A stretch of DNA of 64,000 bases from Bacteroidia bacterium (lineage in GTDB: Bacteria; Bacteroidota; Bacteroidia; Flavobacteriales_D; Cryomorphaceae): positions 372,001-436,000 of the forward strand of contig JAUICL010000003.1 of the NCBI GenBank assembly GCA_030427905.1. Direction: 5' to 3'. Below the pieces are notes generated by a model. The model ran no database searches and had not been told where the DNA came from. It saw only the letters and a list, made by a program, of their open reading frames with translations. Every line of letters begins with the position of its first letter. Within the stretch, counting starts at the first letter, position 1. Of the stretch, positions 617 to 8,007 are shown piece by piece. The translations under genes were made by a program, and so were the position numbers.

Positions 617-731
617 ATAATTCTGTTCAACTAATTGGAGAGCGAATTTACTTCAAATTACCAACAAAGATTAGTGGCAAGTTGATTGCCCCACTTCACC
701 ACGCTCATGACAATTGAGTTATTTTTCGACT

Positions 732-2489
732 ATGGAATTACACTTTGTAGATTGGCTAATCATAGCCGGATTTCTAATTATCAGCTTATTGATCGGACTG
801 TATTTTAGAAAGCGTGCATCCAAAAGTTTGGTCAGTTTTTTCTTAGGCGATCGCGATATGCCTTGGCTTATTGCCGGTATCTCGATGGTAGCCACCACTT
901 TTGCTGCAGACACACCACTTGCTGTAACAGAACTAGTTGGACAAAATGGAATTTCCGGAAACTGGCTCTGGTGGAGTTTTCTGGCAGGTGGAATGCTGAC
1001 CACTTTTTTCTTCGCCAAGCTCTGGCGCCGGGCTGGTGTCTTGACCGAAATCGAACTGATCGAGCTTCGCTATGGTGGAGTTCCAGCCAAAATACTTCGC
1101 GCATTCAAGAGTGTGTATCTGGGACTTTTCATGAATATCATGATCATCGGTTGGGTGAATCTCGCCATGATTTCAATCCTACAGGCCTTTTTCGGACTCG
1201 AACTTTCAACGGTATACTGGATTCTAGGTGGCGCAATGATCTTTGCAGCCATCTACACTTCCCTTTCCGGAATTTGGGGCGTAGCGGTGACGGATGTGGT
1301 CCAGTTTTGTGTGGCGATCACTGGAACGATTATTCTTTCAGTTATTGTAGTCAATCAACCCGAAGTAGGTGGTTTAACTGGTCTTCGGACTTCCTTGCCC
1401 GATTCACTTTTTAGCTTCTTTCCCACTATCGGTGGTGATGATGGATTACAAAGTTTGTCGATTGGCGTTGGGTCATTTCTAGCCTATCTCGGTGTGCAGT
1501 GGTGGGCCAGCTGGTATCCCGGTCAGGAGCCAGGTGGTGGCGGATACGTTGCTCAGCGAATGATGAGTACTCGTACGGAGAAGGGAGCCGTGTATGCTAC
1601 GCTACTCTTCCAAGTCGCACATTATTGTCTTCGTCCATGGCCTTGGATATTGGTTGCTCTGTCGTGTCTTCTCATCTATCCCGAAATGAATCCCATGACC
1701 AACGAAGGTGTAACAGCCGCAGAATTCGGAAAAACATACGTCTGGGCCATGCGCGACTTTCTTCCAATTGGACTCAAGGGTCTATTGCTGGCTTCCTTTC
1801 TTGCAGCCTACTTGAGTACCATTTCCACTCAACTCAACTGGGGAGCTGGGTATTTGGTGAATGATTTGTATAAGCGTTTTATCAATCCCAATCTAAGTGA
1901 AAAGGGATATGTAGGTGCTTCGCGTATTACGACCGTTATATTGATGGCACTCGGTTTAGCAGTTACCACTCAAATGACATCCATCAGTGGAGTGTGGTCA
2001 TTTATCATGGAGTGCGGAGCCGGGCTCGGACTCGTCCTGATTCTGCGCTGGTATTGGTGGCGGATCAACGCCTGGAGCGAGATTTCCGCAACGGTTGCAC
2101 CATTCGTGGCTTTCACCGTATCTCGATACGGATTCGGTTGGGAGTTTCCCAACAGTTTCTTCTTCACCGTCGGATTTACCACTATCACGTGGATAATTGT
2201 GACTTTGCTCACGAGTCCAGAATCGAATGCCGTATTGACGCGATTTTACAACCAAGTAAAACCGGATGGAAACTGGGCACCGTTTCGCAGTGAAGATGAG
2301 ACCAAAACAAGTCTATTCCCTTTGTTCACTTGTTGGATATCGGCCGTGGTGCTCGCCTACAGCATTCTATTTTTGACAGGAAAGATTCTTTTTTCCGAAT
2401 GGAATTCAGCACTAGTTTATGGGGCAGTTTGCGGCGTTAGTGCCATCGCTTTGATTTGGGGATTAAAACGAACATCGATTTGGCGATAA
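732..2489 (+). CDS. Sodium:solute symporter (SSS family)
   Basis: Predicted inner-membrane Na+-coupled transporter of the sodium/solute symporter family, 585 residues. The protein is hydrophobic throughout, with about 13-14 likely membrane spans. The N-terminal span is followed by a charged loop and the stretch FFLGDRDMPWLIAGISM, the place where SSS proteins carry their first conserved helix break. The substrate cannot be told from sequence; sugars, amino acids and carboxylates are all used in this family. I prefer ATG 732 over an in-frame TTG at 714, because membrane span 1 begins directly after it and no conserved residue is lost. It is a single gene, divergent from priA. Confidence 0.85.
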   Translation: MELHFVDWLIIAGFLIISLLIGLYFRKRASKSLVSFFLGDRDMPWLIAGISMVATTFAADTPLAVTELVGQNGISGNWLWWSFLAGGMLTTFFFAKLWRRAGVLTEIELIELRYGGVPAKILRAFKSVYLGLFMNIMIIGWVNLAMISILQAFFGLELSTVYWILGGAMIFAAIYTSLSGIWGVAVTDVVQFCVAITGTIILSVIVVNQPEVGGLTGLRTSLPDSLFSFFPTIGGDDGLQSLSIGVGSFLAYLGVQWWASWYPGQEPGGGGYVAQRMMSTRTEKGAVYATLLFQVAHYCLRPWPWILVALSCLLIYPEMNPMTNEGVTAAEFGKTYVWAMRDFLPIGLKGLLLASFLAAYLSTISTQLNWGAGYLVNDLYKRFINPNLSEKGYVGASRITTVILMALGLAVTTQMTSISGVWSFIMECGAGLGLVLILRWYWWRINAWSEISATVAPFVAFTVSRYGFGWEFPNSFFFTVGFTTITWIIVTLLTSPESNAVLTRFYNQVKPDGNWAPFRSEDETKTSLFPLFTCWISAVVLAYSILFLTGKILFSEWNSALVYGAVCGVSAIALIWGLKRTSIWR

Positions 2490-2549: not shown

Positions 2550-3455
2550 ATGACTATGACGTCCATCAATAAAACATTACTAGTTGGCCTTGCCCTTGGA
2601 GCATTGGCCCTTAGCTCCTGTCACGAAAGGCAGGTAACAAGTGAAAAAGACATTAGCAACGTTGAAGTGGACAGTACAAAATCGTCTGTACTCAACGTGG
2701 CTGGAGAATTGTTTGGAATTCCTTCGCCGATCCAAACAGCCATTTTGGTTAAAAATTCGGGCGCACCCTTCGAAGCCGAAAAGCTGGGAGACCCACAGCG
2801 CGCTGGTGCCTTAGTCTCCAGAACCGATATGGCACTAAATATGGGAATTGCCGGTACAGACATGGCTTATGCTTCGCTTTACAACGATGGTCAACGCGCT
2901 CTTAAGCAATTCAAAGCACTAGAAACTCTTGCTGAAAAATTGGAGGTAAAAGGTGCTATCGACGTTGAGCTGATGAAGAGGCTTGGTGGCCATGTAGGCA
3001 ATGCCGATTCACTACTCATTCTCAGCGGACAATTTTACCGAGCAGCCGATGCCTATCTCAAAGAAAACGATCGGGTAGATATTGCCACTTTGGTACTCGC
3101 CGGTGGTTGGATCGAATCTACTTTCCTGACCTGTGTAGCTGCAGAGAGCGGAATAGATGAAGCTAAACAACGTATAGCCGAACAGAAAGTGACCATTGAA
3201 ACACTCTGCAACATTTTACATAAACTCGGCGATGAAAACTTGACGGATAGTCCATTCCTGACTAAAATGGATAGTTTGAACATGGCTTACGACAACGTGA
3301 TTCGTACCTATTCATACAAACCATCGATAACGAATGCCGAAGCCAAAAAAACGACCATAAAGAGTCAGACCATATTTATAATGAAACCTGAAACTCAAAA
3401 AGAGATTTCTTCGAGAGTTTCCGAGCTCCGACAATTAATCCTGCAAGCATCATGA
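2550..3455 (+). CDS. Putative lipoprotein, conserved in Bacteroidota, function unknown
   Basis: The 301-residue product begins with a hydrophobic signal segment ending in LALSSC, a lipobox with Cys24 as the probable lipidated residue, so it should be anchored in an envelope membrane. The mature part is mostly helical and hydrophilic, with repeated acidic-basic stretches and no recognisable catalytic motif. A second ATG two codons downstream (2556) could equally be the start. The sequence TAATTTCG at 2528-2535 resembles a Bacteroidota -7 element. The stop overlaps the next gene by four bases (ATGA), so the two are almost certainly co-translated. I do not recognise the function. Confidence 0.75.
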   Translation: MTMTSINKTLLVGLALGALALSSCHERQVTSEKDISNVEVDSTKSSVLNVAGELFGIPSPIQTAILVKNSGAPFEAEKLGDPQRAGALVSRTDMALNMGIAGTDMAYASLYNDGQRALKQFKALETLAEKLEVKGAIDVELMKRLGGHVGNADSLLILSGQFYRAADAYLKENDRVDIATLVLAGGWIESTFLTCVAAESGIDEAKQRIAEQKVTIETLCNILHKLGDENLTDSPFLTKMDSLNMAYDNVIRTYSYKPSITNAEAKKTTIKSQTIFIMKPETQKEISSRVSELRQLILQAS

Positions 3456-3871
3456 AAAATCTGAGACTCGTATTACTCCTTCTCTGCTCATCCTTCCTAG
3501 GCTTTAATAGCTTTGCCCAATGCGATAGTACCGCAACCTTGGCGGCCAAAGCCCTAGGTCAAGACTACATTTCTGATGGTCAGGTGTATCGCGCCTTGCT
3601 CTTCGAAGATCAAGAAGCTGAATTTCACACCACCTTTTTTGGCGGATCCAATTATAGGATATCATCCTATTTAGGCCTTGTGGGCGAACAACTCGTATTT
3701 ACCTTAGAAGACACCGATGGAAACGTGCTTTTCTCAAATGCCGATCACGGGAATAGCGTCTACTGGGATTTCGAATTTGAACATACCATCGACGCCAAAG
3801 TGAAAGCTCATATTGACTTAACGAAACAAAAATCAGGATGTGCCGTACTATTAATCGGATTTGAGCGATAA
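3452..3871 (+). CDS. Small secreted protein, unknown function
   Basis: A 139-residue protein with a clear Sec signal peptide (about residues 1-22, ending SFAQ). The mature domain is rich in beta-type residues, around YRISSYLGLVGEQLVFTL and a WDFEFEHTIDAKVKAHIDL stretch, suggesting a small beta-sandwich. The alternation resembles periplasmic ligand-binding sandwich domains, but no family can be named. It overlaps the preceding lipoprotein gene by four bases, so the pair probably act together in the envelope. A strong intrinsic terminator follows 20 bases after its stop. Confidence 0.7.
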   Translation: MKNLRLVLLLLCSSFLGFNSFAQCDSTATLAAKALGQDYISDGQVYRALLFEDQEAEFHTTFFGGSNYRISSYLGLVGEQLVFTLEDTDGNVLFSNADHGNSVYWDFEFEHTIDAKVKAHIDLTKQKSGCAVLLIGFER

Positions 3872-3890
3872 ACGTTTAAATGAACGACTT

Positions 3891-3923
3891 GAAAAGCGCC
3901 TCGAATTCGGGGCGCTTTTTTTA
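3891..3923 (+). terminator. Rho-independent terminator after the 2550-3871 operon
   Basis: AAAAGCGCC at 3892-3900 pairs with GGCGCTTTT at 3911-3919, and the loop region itself contains the palindrome CGAATTCG. A run of seven T follows. It lies between the stop at 3871 and the ATG at 3937 and argues against any start upstream of 3937 for the ABC transporter gene. Confidence 0.85.
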
Positions 3924-3936
3924 TACCCTTAAAACT

Positions 3937-6900
3937 ATGAGCGAACGAATACTGAACGCACTGCTGCAATTGTTTGCAATTATTGCACGATTCGATCCTG
4001 ACCATACCGATGGCCTGATTGGCCGTCAAATTGTGGAGTCCTTCCTAAAGGAAAGACTCCCTGTAACTGTTGTAAATAGTTACCTAGAGAATTTTGACGA
4101 GTACGTTGAGAAGTACCAAAAAGTCTCCAAGAGAAAGAATGGCGAGAAGAAACGGACATCTGTAAACTCCGTGAAAGTACTTCGGATTTGCACGCAGATA
4201 AACGAAGAACTTACCCAACGGCAGAAAGTCATTGTATTGATTCGCCTACTGGAGTTTGTTCACACCCATACCGAAGTTTCTGAATTGGAAGATGAGTTCG
4301 TCAATACCGTGGCGGACACTTTTAATTTTGACCTAGAAGAGTTTAGACTTGCAAAACACTTCGTTGGTGAGCTTGAAACGGAGTTGATTGAATCTCCAAA
4401 CGTGATGTATATCACGGATAGCACTGATTCGGGAGCTGGATTCGGAAAGCACTTTCTCTGCGAAGGTCTAGAAGGATACATTCGCGTTCTGAGACTTCCT
4501 AGTGTCAATCTTCATTTCATTAAGTACAGAGGGGAAGGAAGCTATAATATCTCAGGTCAAGTGGTATATAGCGATCGCTTCTACGTTCTGAACCAAGGAG
4601 CATCTATTAGGGGTAGTAAGATCAAACCGATCTACTACAGCGATTTGATCGGAGCATTTCTCAACGATGGTAATCGCGAGAAAATCTACTTCCGCGCCGA
4701 CCATGTTGAGTACAAATTCAAACGTGGAAACATCGGACTACAAGATGTAAACCTGTACGAAGAAGACGGCAGGCTAGTCGGAATAATGGGAGCCAGCGGT
4801 AGTGGAAAATCTACCTTGCTGAATGTCCTAAATGGAAACTTAAATCCGTCGAATGGTAAAATCACCATCAACGGCATCGATATTCATCACGAGTCAGACT
4901 CGTTGGAAGGACTGATCGGATATGTGGCTCAAGACGATCTACTCGTTGAAGAGCTTACGGTTTTTCAAAACTTATTCTACAACGCCAAGCTCTGCTTTGG
5001 CCAAAAATCGAGCGAAGAGATTACTGACCTTGTCAACGAACTTCTCTCGACTCTTGGTCTTTCTGAGACTTCTGATCTCAAAGTTGGGAATCCATTGGAT
5101 AAAACCATTAGTGGTGGTCAGCGAAAAAGGCTAAACATCGCCCTAGAGCTGATCAGAGAACCTGCTGTGCTTTTCGTCGATGAGCCTACATCGGGTCTTT
5201 CATCTCGCGATTCAGAAAATATTATGGACTTACTCAAAGAGCTAAGCTTGAAGGGTAAGTTGATTTTTGTGGTTATTCACCAGCCATCTTCAGACATCTT
5301 CAAGATGTTTGATCGCCTATTGGTAATGGACAATGGTGGCTACCCCATCTACTACGGAAACCCCGTTGACAGCTTGGTATACTTCAAGAAAATGGTTGAT
5401 CACATCAACTGTGATGAAGCGGAGTGTCACATTTGTGGAAATGTTCAGACCGAAGAAATCTTCAACATCATCGAATCGAAGGTTGTAGATGAATTTGGAA
5501 ACCTGACCCATCAGCGAAAAATTACGCCAAAGGAGTGGAATGAGCTGTATAAAGAAAACATCGAGACCGAGTTTCCAGAATACCAAGAAGCGCAGCCAAT
5601 ACCAGAAACTGGATTTACCATTCCGACAAAGATCAAGCAGTTCGGTGTGTTTATGAAGCGGGATATTCTTTCGAAGCTCACAAATCGCCAGTACGTTCTG
5701 ATCAACCTTTTGGAAGCCCCTGCTCTGGCTATGATTTTGGCTTTCTTTATGCGGTTTTTTATTCCAGGTGGATTGGGCGAAAGCTACATCTTCCGCGAAA
5801 ACGAAAATATCCCTGTATACATTTTCATTTCGGTGATTGTGGCTCTCTTCATTGGACTTACGGTGAGTTCAGAAGAGATCATTCGCGACAAGAAAATCAG
5901 GCAGCGCGAGTCTTTCCTGAATCTTTCGCGAAGCAGCTACTTGTACAGTAAAATCGGAATCATGCTCGCCATTTCGGCACTGCAAATGTTCCTTTTTGTC
6001 ATTATCGGAAACTACATTCTCGAAATTCAGGGCATGACTTTGCCTTACTGGCTCATCCTATTCTCGACTTGTTCTTTTGCCAATATCCTTGGGCTCAACA
6101 TTTCGGCGAGCTTCAATTCGGCGAAGGTTATTTACATTCTCATTCCTATTATTATCATCCCACAGCTCTTGTTTAGTGGAATCATCGTACGCTTTGATAA
6201 GCTCAACCCCATTTTTGCATCGCAAGAAGGTGTGCCGTGGATCGGAAACATCATGGCGAGTCGCTGGGCATACGAAGCTATTGCTGTGACCCAATACAAG
6301 TGGAACGACTACGAGCGTGAGTTCTTTGAATTGGAAAAGCGCAAAAAGTTTTCGAACTGGAAAAAGGACTACTGGCTCACCGAGCTTCGAAACAAGGTCG
6401 CTACCGTTGAGCGCACCATGCAATCTGGCGATGACCTGGCCGTGGTTGAAAACGACTTACTCGTGATTAAAAACGAAATTGAAAAAGAAAACAATTTTCT
6501 AAAAAACCTCGACTTTAAACAAGCCGATATGCTCACGCCTGAGCATGTAGACAAAGATGTTCTCAAGGCCCTACGTGGTCACCTTGATGCGCTCAATGAG
6601 CACTACAAGCGCGTCTATTTAAAAGCTGACAAGTCGAAAGAAACGACCATCTACGCCATGACTAAAACCAATGACGAAGGTGTAGAATTTCAAAACTTAA
6701 TCAACGATCACAAGAACGATCAACTCGAAGTATTCGCTACAAATCGGAACGATGTGAATTACATTGTAGAGCACAATGGAGAACTCATTCAGAAGAAAGA
6801 TCTAATCTACCTAATGCCCTACAATAGCAGTTTTTTTGAAGCACATTTTTACGCGCCAGCAAAGAATCTTTTCGGTCGTTTTATCGACACGTTCTACGCC

Positions 6901-7032
6901 AACATCCTCGTACTTTGGGGAATGACTATCACACTAGCTATTTGCCTATTCTTCAACGTATTTCCAAGAGCCATCAGCTTATTGGAAAGAGGAATGGAAC
7001 TCAGCTCTATCAAAATAAAAAAGCGGGATTAA
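3937..7032 (+). CDS. TerB-like domain / ABC transporter (ABCG-type ATPase and permease) fusion
   Basis: A single 1031-residue chain. Residues 1 to about 150 are helical, and the stretch KVIVLIRLLEFVHTHTE with acidic residues after it resembles tellurite-resistance TerB-like domains. A beta-rich segment follows (about 155-260, possibly FHA-like, inference). The ABC domain has Walker A GASGSGKST (Lys291), signature SGGQRKR (about 392) and Walker B LFVDEP (Asp415). The ABC2-type membrane part starts near residue 590 with several spans. A long helical, probably coiled-coil insert lies between the last two spans (about 790-985). The domain order ATPase-then-permease is that of ABCG half-transporters. 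The substrate is unknown. The start at ATG 3937 is chosen because an in-frame extension to 3880 would run through the terminator hairpin. Confidence 0.85.
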   Translation: MSERILNALLQLFAIIARFDPDHTDGLIGRQIVESFLKERLPVTVVNSYLENFDEYVEKYQKVSKRKNGEKKRTSVNSVKVLRICTQINEELTQRQKVIVLIRLLEFVHTHTEVSELEDEFVNTVADTFNFDLEEFRLAKHFVGELETELIESPNVMYITDSTDSGAGFGKHFLCEGLEGYIRVLRLPSVNLHFIKYRGEGSYNISGQVVYSDRFYVLNQGASIRGSKIKPIYYSDLIGAFLNDGNREKIYFRADHVEYKFKRGNIGLQDVNLYEEDGRLVGIMGASGSGKSTLLNVLNGNLNPSNGKITINGIDIHHESDSLEGLIGYVAQDDLLVEELTVFQNLFYNAKLCFGQKSSEEITDLVNELLSTLGLSETSDLKVGNPLDKTISGGQRKRLNIALELIREPAVLFVDEPTSGLSSRDSENIMDLLKELSLKGKLIFVVIHQPSSDIFKMFDRLLVMDNGGYPIYYGNPVDSLVYFKKMVDHINCDEAECHICGNVQTEEIFNIIESKVVDEFGNLTHQRKITPKEWNELYKENIETEFPEYQEAQPIPETGFTIPTKIKQFGVFMKRDILSKLTNRQYVLINLLEAPALAMILAFFMRFFIPGGLGESYIFRENENIPVYIFISVIVALFIGLTVSSEEIIRDKKIRQRESFLNLSRSSYLYSKIGIMLAISALQMFLFVIIGNYILEIQGMTLPYWLILFSTCSFANILGLNISASFNSAKVIYILIPIIIIPQLLFSGIIVRFDKLNPIFASQEGVPWIGNIMASRWAYEAIAVTQYKWNDYEREFFELEKRKKFSNWKKDYWLTELRNKVATVERTMQSGDDLAVVENDLLVIKNEIEKENNFLKNLDFKQADMLTPEHVDKDVLKALRGHLDALNEHYKRVYLKADKSKETTIYAMTKTNDEGVEFQNLINDHKNDQLEVFATNRNDVNYIVEHNGELIQKKDLIYLMPYNSSFFEAHFYAPAKNLFGRFIDTFYANILVLWGMTITLAICLFFNVFPRAISLLERGMELSSIKIKKRD

Positions 7033-7046
7033 CCCGCTTTTTTTAA
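7017..7046. terminator. Intrinsic terminator, probably bidirectional
   Basis: The run AAAAAGCGGG (7018-7027) pairs with CCCGCTTTTT (7033-7042) around a five-base loop that contains the stop codon of the ABC gene. It is flanked by A on the left and T on the right, so it can end transcription from both the ABC gene and the convergent siaC-like gene. Confidence 0.8.
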
Positions 7047-7063: not shown

Positions 7064-7447
7064 TTACAGCTCTTCTACTTTGACCATATCAAAGTCAATG
7101 TCGATAATGGCATCGTAGTCTTCACCTGCTTCCAGCATATCTTCATCATCTTCTTCGTAGTGCCAGATTACGGAGACATCCTTACCCGCTTTTTTAATCT
7201 GCTCAAGCTTCTTAAAAACATCTAGTATACATTTTGAGCTACTGGTGTTGAAGTACTCAAGCTGCATATGCACTTCCGTTTTATCTTTTGCACTTTGGGC
7301 ATATGTATCGATCCACTGGAAGAGTGGCTTGTAAAAATCAATTGAATTTTCGGGGATTGATCTCCCTTTTATAAGTAAGACTCCCGACTCCGAGTTGAAA
7401 TTGACAGTTGGTGTTTTTGGTGTTCCGTCAATAGAAATATTCTCCAT
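7064..7447 (-). CDS. siaC: SiaC-family regulatory phosphoprotein (DUF1987)
   Basis: A 127-residue protein matching the DUF1987/SiaC family: N-terminal IDGTPKTPTVNF, then a central LEYFNTSSSKCILDVF motif and an acidic C-terminus. In Pseudomonas SiaC is phosphorylated by SiaB on a threonine (Thr68) in this same motif, and its phospho-state controls a diguanylate cyclase and aggregation. Here the threonine of YFNTSSSK is also residue 68. The gene starts five bases after the siaB-like gene, so the kinase and its substrate are co-expressed. No SiaA-type phosphatase or diguanylate cyclase lies in this window. The partner in this organism is unknown. Confidence 0.85.
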   Translation of the reverse strand: MENISIDGTPKTPTVNFNSESGVLLIKGRSIPENSIDFYKPLFQWIDTYAQSAKDKTEVHMQLEYFNTSSSKCILDVFKKLEQIKKAGKDVSVIWHYEEDDEDMLEAGEDYDAIIDIDFDMVKVEEL

Positions 7448-7452
7448 AAGGA

Positions 7453-8007
7453 TTAATCTTGTTTTACTTTCACATTAAGGCTAAAAAACGAGCTCCCATT
7501 GGCAAAGGGGATAAAGCCAAACTCTAACTTCTCACCACTTTTTCTGGCAATGTCTATCATACCAAGACCGCCGCCGCCTTTTTCAGACATTTTACCATTG
7601 GCCAGTACAGATTTGTACAAGTCTTTCACTTCATCTTTGGTCATCCCGTTTATCTCTTCCAGTCGCTCCTTAAGCATGTCGGCATTGTTGGTCAAAACAA
7701 AGTTTCCAGTAATGATGGAGTACCCGGTAACATTTTTAGCGACCATAACTATGACCGATGGCGTGTCTTCACCGCTTCCTTCGGGTGGTCTTTCGATGTG
7801 GTGGTGTAAGTTCTGGAGACATTCAACCAAGATGTTGAACATCCGTTTTTTCACTTTGGCACTCTCTCCAAATAGGTCGAGTTTGCGCTCTATAATCAGC
7901 AAAATGGAAGAGAGAAGCTCACTTGACATATCTCCCTTAAAAGAGAGCATGATGTTCTTCTTCTCCATTGTATCATATAGATCAAATATCTCCTGTATTT
8001 GCGTCAA
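7453..8007 (-). CDS. siaB: SiaB-family protein kinase (GHKL-like, DUF6272)
   Basis: A 184-residue protein of the SiaB family, the serine/threonine kinase that phosphorylates SiaC. It has the N-terminal pattern MLSFKGDMSSELLSSILLII, a helical N-box-like part with LVECLQNLHHH (about residues 60-72), and the glycine-rich GKMSEKGGGGLGMIDIARKS (about 140-158), consistent with a GHKL ATP-binding fold. The start is TTG at 8007; the next in-frame ATG, 13 residues on, would remove the conserved N-terminal helix. It is first in the two-gene operon. The sequence CAAAAATA at 8024-8031 reads TATTTTTG on the coding strand, a fair -7 element. Confidence 0.85.
   Translation of the reverse strand: MTQIQEIFDLYDTMEKKNIMLSFKGDMSSELLSSILLIIERKLDLFGESAKVKKRMFNILVECLQNLHHHIERPPEGSGEDTPSVIVMVAKNVTGYSIITGNFVLTNNADMLKERLEEINGMTKDEVKDLYKSVLANGKMSEKGGGGLGMIDIARKSGEKLEFGFIPFANGSSFFSLNVKVKQD

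Follow-up and report, generated by a model that had tools for sequence, protein, structure and literature searches.

The window, by which we mean the whole 64,000-nucleotide stretch of DNA analyzed here, contains an intact open reading frame for a 1031-residue protein (3937-7032, forward strand) that we call the TerB-ABCG exporter. Along its chain, a TerB-type helical head is followed by a small beta domain, an ABCG ATPase, and a permease with a helical insert before the last membrane helix. Upstream lie genes for a lipoprotein (LP) and a small protein with a signal-like start (SP), and downstream lie genes for SiaC- and SiaB-family proteins. The reading we favor, at a probability of roughly 0.5, is that of an envelope exporter that cooperates with a lipoprotein and a secreted partner; its gating would take place via the TerB/FHA-like head, and a SiaABC partner switch is the likely controller.

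Architecture of the TerB-ABCG Exporter

The reading frame opens with an ATG at 3937, and its stop codon ends at 7032. A second in-frame ATG is present upstream at 3880; because relatives begin at the methionine corresponding to 3937, that position is the likely start. The AlphaFold2 model of the chain has a mean pLDDT of 82.5 and a pTM of 0.70. A sequence-only reading of this DNA had described a TerB-like region fused to a complete ATPase and permease with a long helical insert. The anatomy it proposed stands, but it overlooked the FHA-like domain, the LP and SP genes upstream, and the SiaC/SiaB neighbors.

The combination of ATPase and permease on a single chain is clear from Pfam, which assigns ABC_tran (E = 5.4e-33) and ABC2_membrane (E = 5.7e-17). 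With the ATPase ahead of the permease and an ABCG fold, the protein is of the ABCG type. Fold comparison, in which the matches of the exporter model span residues 247-1011, returns ABCG2, ABCG5, and ABCG25 at Z scores of 30-33 (about 32), rmsd values of 2.7-4.1, and 22-25% identity. The ATPase domain (4684-5397, forward strand; residues 250-487) contains Walker A at 285-293, the Q-loop at Q332, the signature SGGQ at 392-395, Walker B at D415/E416, and the H-loop at H448. These elements are kept in 77 of 77 aligned sequences, the exceptions being position 292, with one Ser-to-Thr change, and position 285, with two unknown letters. Because these residues are conserved, ATP-driven transport by the exporter is likely on the basis of its sequence. 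The D-loop of the window protein, SGLSSRDS, conforms to the SGLSS.DS found in seven proteins (L001, L021, L022, L024, L025, L031, and L032) and differs from the SGLD form of L026 and L027 (SGLDPKTD); L026 is an FHA-ABC protein by Pfam, and L027 aligns to the FHA part of L026. Five PADLOC matches to defense systems have their best stretches in the ATPase domain, and we set aside a role as a defense system.

A CxxC pair, C497 and C500 (5425-5436, forward strand), lies in the linker between the ATPase and the permease. Both cysteines are invariant in the 77 aligned sequences, and L020, from outside that set, does not have them. Across a dimer, the pair might provide a site for a metal or a disulfide.

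The permease helices up to the pre-insert region occupy 5629-6300 (residues 565-788), followed by the helical insert with its beta hairpins (6301-6888, residues 789-984) and by the last membrane helix (6889-6951, residues 985-1005 in the model), all on the forward strand. The insert claimed by the sequence-only reading is evident both in the predicted structure and in the alignment: all 77 sequences have 189-237 residues ahead of the last membrane helix, and these are mainly helical, with model helices at 791-830, 834-854, 873-908, and 912-925. By analogy with the loop that ABCG proteins carry before their last membrane helix, the insert is expected to lie outside the inner membrane.

The TerB-type head (3937-4371, forward strand; residues 1-145) is modeled as seven helices across residues 3-144, with two low-confidence loops. 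Its resemblance to TerB had been proposed together with a profile search that could refute it, and that search came out positive. Scanned alone, residues 1-150 match PF05099 with an E of 4.4e-6 and 27.4 bits against a cut-off of 24.4, covering residues 30-140; scanned as a whole, the exporter chain scores 22.2 bits, under the same cut-off. We assembled 87 homologous N-termini (the window protein, 77 from named loci, and 9 from other genomes). In a Pfam scan, TerB is matched at E ≤ 0.01 by 80 of the 87 heads (best 2.1e-12) and the next family by 4. In the window's clade, the head has an enlarged, variable first loop; in L022 and L029, from outside the order, this loop is compact, and the two match TerB at 31.2 and 36.5 bits. 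A profile of the heads searched against PDB sequences returned no TerB chain at E ≤ 1.

The link to tellurite suggested for this head is unsupported here. A search of the genome for TerD found none, the one other TerB protein is located elsewhere, and we do not favor a role in tellurite resistance in a genome lacking TerD. That other TerB protein (L147; G000:C3:295289-295627, in a 249-residue frame) scores 70 bits, a better match to TerB than that of the exporter head. In the locus L050, an additional 243-residue TerB-like reading frame (L050:10001-10732; 20.9 bits, below the cut-off) is found just 5′ of a full exporter gene and is either a stand-alone head or a remnant.

Between the head and the ATPase, residues 150-245 (4384-4671, forward strand) form mainly strands in the AlphaFold2 model. 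In a Pfam scan of 52 such beta domains, no family other than FHA has more than one match, and FHA is matched weakly, by 6 of the 52 (best E 0.013); the domain of the window protein itself gives no match to FHA (PF00498) at E ≤ 0.5. When a profile was compared with 11 FHA domains, the second half of the domain aligned to FHA with a probability of 60.8 and an E of 8e-5 for that single comparison, and an unrelated beta protein used as a control gave a probability of 0.2. The phosphothreonine site of FHA domains consists of GR, S..H, and S-x-N-G. This site does not appear in the beta-domain consensus set beside the FHA alignment. We therefore describe the domain as remotely FHA-like and reject its assignment as a true FHA domain, as the window protein lacks both a profile match and the phosphothreonine-binding motif. 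A search of this genome for FHA domains at E ≤ 0.001 found none.

Distribution

The TerB-ABCG fusion is no one-off but is widespread in the order, being present at E ≤ 1e-30 in 31 of 40 genomes, its own included. In a sample of 296 genomes from the phylum, in which two candidates were scored per genome, 9 have a match at E ≤ 1e-40. Five of these have near-full-length matches (G000, G015, G086, G183, and G223), two have longer TerB-headed proteins (G312 and G320, with TerB scores of 39.4 bits in L024 and 34.1 bits in L031), and two have FHA-ABC proteins (G177 and G217). The longer TerB-ABCG form occurs outside the class (L024 and L031). Four proteins from outside the class, L024, L025, L031, and L032, have 1201-1309 residues, and the spacing from TerB to the ATPase is about 325-335 residues in L024 and L031 versus about 130 in the window protein.

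From a pattern scan of named genomes, we kept the best 80 of 547 loci, to which the counts per 80 given below refer. Their titles are mostly Flavobacteriales or only Bacteroidetes/Bacteroidota/Bacteroidia, with some Bacteroidales, Marinilabiliales, and Salinivirgaceae.

LP and SP Genes Upstream of the Exporter

LP (2550-3455, forward strand) encodes a 301-residue helical lipoprotein whose lipobox residue, Cys24, is invariant in 50 of 50 aligned rows. SP (3452-3871, forward strand) overlaps LP by 4 bases and encodes a 139-residue protein with a start that, judged by eye, resembles a signal peptide. Neither belongs to a known family. The LP model is helical, with a pLDDT of 83.8, and no known fold could be assigned to it: the best Foldseek E is 0.62, and the best Z by VIA is 6.7 over 191 residues at an rmsd of 6.2, under the stated noise level for helical models. 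Among the matches listed (25 of 30), no Pfam family is matched by more than 3 of 50 LP members (best single E 0.00097). For SP, we rejected both ArlS_N, matched by 13 of 53 members (best 0.014), and BspA_v, matched by 5 of 53 (best 0.0055), neither of which is matched by the window SP; the single match of SP in the PDB is BspA, at an E of 0.032.

Of the 31 exporter-bearing genomes, 29 have an LP gene no more than 1 kb from the exporter. In the other two, a contig end coincides with the start of the exporter match (G013) or LP is found on other contigs (G033). Within the best 80 of 547 named loci, LP is present in 59 and SP in 58, and LP is located 5′ of the exporter on the same strand in 57 of the 59, with L078 (downstream) and L082 (opposite strand) as the exceptions. 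Crocinitomix catalasitica ATCC 23190 and Brumimicrobium salinarum LHR20 are among the strains in which the exporter, LP, and SP occur together. The distance from SP to the exporter is 505-646 bp in 9 of the 56 loci from this set where both genes were measured. Each of these nine wide gaps contains a further reading frame of 159-180 residues, and seven of the nine frames resemble the one that immediately precedes the exporter gene of L038 and L043. LP and SP were not found in L038 and L043, the contig of the latter beginning 1.1 kb before the exporter. Signal-like starts are seen in the wide-gap frames, for example, L035:9500-9994, L049:9506-9985, and seven more, to which L038:9507-9995 and L043:608-1111 are similar. 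A gene for a sodium/solute symporter (window 714-2489) is situated 5′ of LP and recurs in 6 of the best 80 of 547 named loci.

A terminator-like hairpin followed by a T-run (3891-3920, forward strand) separates SP from the exporter gene. Only RNA folding shows it, with -23.1 kcal/mol for the segment 3873-3926; it is listed neither by the terminator scan nor by a perfect-stem search. The latter, which is stricter, finds terminator-like hairpins in 10 of 47 relatives with an SP-exporter gap of 200 bp or less. Given these hairpins before the exporter, we regard the upstream genes as a conserved cluster that is perhaps not always one transcript. In addition, a pair of LP- and SP-like genes adjoins polA (recognized by eye), with no exporter, in all four of the stretches fetched for LP paralogues. 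Because such pairs occur without the exporter, LP-SP is a module in its own right. The polA-adjoining pairs are located at L137:8165-9534, L138:6218-7599, L139:7683-9149, and L140:6431-7748.

SiaC and SiaB Genes Adjoining the Exporter

Downstream, a two-way terminator-like hairpin detected by the terminator scan (7017-7043) lies between the exporter gene and a convergent siaC gene (7064-7447, reverse strand; PF09345), which is followed by a gene for a SiaB-family kinase (7453-8007, reverse strand; PF19788, with NF038262 above its cut-off). The encoded SiaC keeps Y65-F-N67-T68-S69, numbered as the Pseudomonas aeruginosa phosphosite. We assign the pair to the SiaABC type on the basis of a phosphosite-bearing SiaC adjoining a SiaB-family kinase, with scores that stay below the NCBIfam equivalogs for SiaC (NF038265, 99.7 of 150 bits) and SiaB (NF038264, 86.9 of 225 bits). 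PDB 6kko contains two chains, named DUF1987 protein and putative serine phosphatase by the depositors, to which the SiaC and SiaB of the window are matched (E = 1.2e-18 and 9.2e-16). No SpoIIE phosphatase was found in the window locus, and the genome's five SpoIIE matches are all outside the window.

The proximity of SiaC to the exporter recurs across the order. SiaC is located within 600 bp of the exporter in 18 of the 31 exporter-bearing genomes, own included, where SiaC copy numbers and genome sizes lead to an expectation of about 0.06 within 1 kb. Seventeen of the 18 adjacent genes are downstream and convergent, and one is upstream on the same strand. In the other 13 genomes, SiaC is found beyond 600 bp, so tight linkage is not needed. 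Exporter-bearing genomes contain 1 to 9 copies of SiaC. Counted anywhere in the genome, SiaC accompanies the exporter in all 31 genomes that have it, versus 2 of 9 exporter-free genomes that contain SiaC (Fisher 1.9e-6, ignoring kinship), and the presence of LP by genome gives the same counts.

The best 80 of 547 named loci show this arrangement as well. At least 20 have SiaC directly downstream and convergent, a lower bound in view of contig ends, and 17 of these also have SiaB. Five of the 20 are titled Bacteroidales, Marinilabiliales, or Salinivirgaceae. The phosphosite reads YFNTS in 19 of the 20 SiaC proteins and YVNTS in the remaining one. The one case with SiaC upstream of the exporter, L142, has on one strand and in this order genes for CheB, CheR, a sub-threshold GAF protein, a GAF-PAS-SpoIIE phosphatase, SiaB, two consecutive SiaC proteins, the exporter, LP, and a 158-residue protein; the last has a signal-like start and is not matched by the SP profile.

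We also compared the SiaC-binding stalk motif of SiaD with the exporter. By family mean, head residues 77-94 score highest of the 1013 positions; in the window protein alone, they tie for second. Because this is equaled by 63 of 400 shuffled motifs, the likeness is not significant, and we treat the suggestive match as a lead only.

Proposed Mechanism and Alternatives

The ABCG fold suggests a half-size ABCG pump that would act as a homodimer in the inner membrane. The cytosolic TerB and degenerate FHA-like head lies directly before the ATPase, as the regulatory FHA does in FHA-ABC exporters, and may control it. On the periplasmic side, the enlarged outer loop would meet LP and SP, as their conserved linkage suggests, and the exporter probably acts with lipoprotein and secreted partners. 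A partner switch is the likeliest step of control: by analogy with SiaC and SiaD, unphosphorylated SiaC would bind the head, and phosphorylation by SiaB at T68 would release it. An envelope lipid, lipoprotein, or glycolipid as the cargo is a guess.

The even odds we give this reading reflect evidence in both directions. In its favor are the ABCG fold, the conserved ATPase motifs, the TerB similarity of 80 of 87 heads, the FHA likeness, the linkage of LP/SP and of SiaC, the L142 array, and the YFNTS site. Weighing against it are the 13 of 31 genomes without a close SiaC, the orientation of siaC and siaB facing the exporter across a two-way terminator, and the hairpin between SP and the exporter, as well as the equivalog scores, the LP-SP pairs lacking an exporter, and the nonsignificant match to the SiaD motif.

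Direct gating by a TerB sensor, the idea raised by the sequence-only reading, is plausible; in the form in which the head gates the exporter by binding a ligand or metal, with the Sia genes being neighbors for other reasons, we consider it unlikely. Such gating would fit the TerB similarity of 80 of the 87 heads, the recurrence of the fusion in a longer form (L024 and L031), and the 13 of 31 genomes without SiaC within 600 bp, but the first TerB loop is expanded and variable in the clade, the SiaC linkage is far above chance, and the genome has no TerD. The phosphorylation switch next door is likelier to be the controller than is the sensing of tellurite or a metal by TerB, and we think that the SiaC/SiaB neighbors are a better clue to control than the idea of a TerB sensor.

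The genes could instead be neighbors, perhaps co-regulated, whose proteins do not touch, with SiaABC controlling, for example, attachment and the exporter serving as an unregulated envelope pump. The same-strand array of L142 and the occurrence of SiaC in every one of the 31 exporter-bearing genomes but in 2 of the 9 others (kinship ignored) make this quite improbable, although the convergence of 17 of 18 adjacent cases, the 1 to 9 SiaC copies per exporter-bearing genome, and the two-way terminator separating the exporter and siaC all speak for it. Least probable of the three is an ABC unit that acts as a mechanotransmitter, pulling on or delivering LP/SP and not moving a substrate through the membrane, which the large conserved helical insert and the two conserved exported partners would suit but which sits poorly with a permease that retains the ABCG fold, a fold for whose eukaryotic members transport is established.

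Returning to the envelope exporter controlled by a partner switch, its boldest form is a tentative proposal: a SiaABC-type switch might directly gate the ABC exporter by binding the TerB/FHA-like head, with LP and secreted proteins docking on the outer loop. The outcome would be a trans-envelope export machine under signal control and a new output class for partner switches. An exporter as the target of a partner switch would, if true, extend the scheme to transport. A testable role would become available for an exporter locus that is conserved in the order and its relatives but uncharacterized, and LP and SP would offer a first functional approach to two families that have no Pfam match.

Comparison with Known Systems

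The head matches the TerB family profile (PF05099) and differs in its expanded first loop, its fusion to an exporter, and its occurrence in a genome without TerD. With ABCG exporters such as human ABCG2 and ABCG5/G8 and plant ABCG25, the window protein shares the ATPase-permease order, the fold, about 22-25% identity, and the ATPase motifs; it differs in its TerB and beta-domain head, its D-loop SGLSSRDS in place of the SGLD form of L026 and L027, its CxxC linker, and the 189-237-residue insert before the last membrane helix. Among the papers listed in a literature search, judged by titles and the beginnings of abstracts and with subscription journals mostly outside its scope, none concerns a TerB-ABCG fusion or SiaC beside an exporter.

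The FHA-ABC exporter Rv1747 of Mycobacterium tuberculosis similarly places cytosolic regulatory domains on an exporter and is described as under stress-protein and kinase control (PMC5549992, PMC3908365). Rv1747 carries a pair of FHA domains, and binding of a phosphothreonine partner has been demonstrated for one of them (PMC5549992, PMC3908365), whereas the window protein combines a TerB head with an FHA-like domain lacking the phosphothreonine motif.

The SiaABCD switch of P. aeruginosa, as described in PMC8457831, shares with the present loci the SiaB- and SiaC-family proteins, the N67-T68-S69 site, and, in L142, an adjoining SpoIIE phosphatase. According to that text, SiaB phosphorylates T68 of SiaC and thereby stops SiaC from binding its target, and DUF1987 proteins are suggested to commonly modulate adjacent proteins (PMC8457831). 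The partner-switch targets named there and in the abstracts covered are diguanylate cyclases and sigma factors. The known SiaC target in P. aeruginosa, SiaD, is a diguanylate cyclase (PMC8457831), whereas the neighbor of SiaC here is an ABC exporter.
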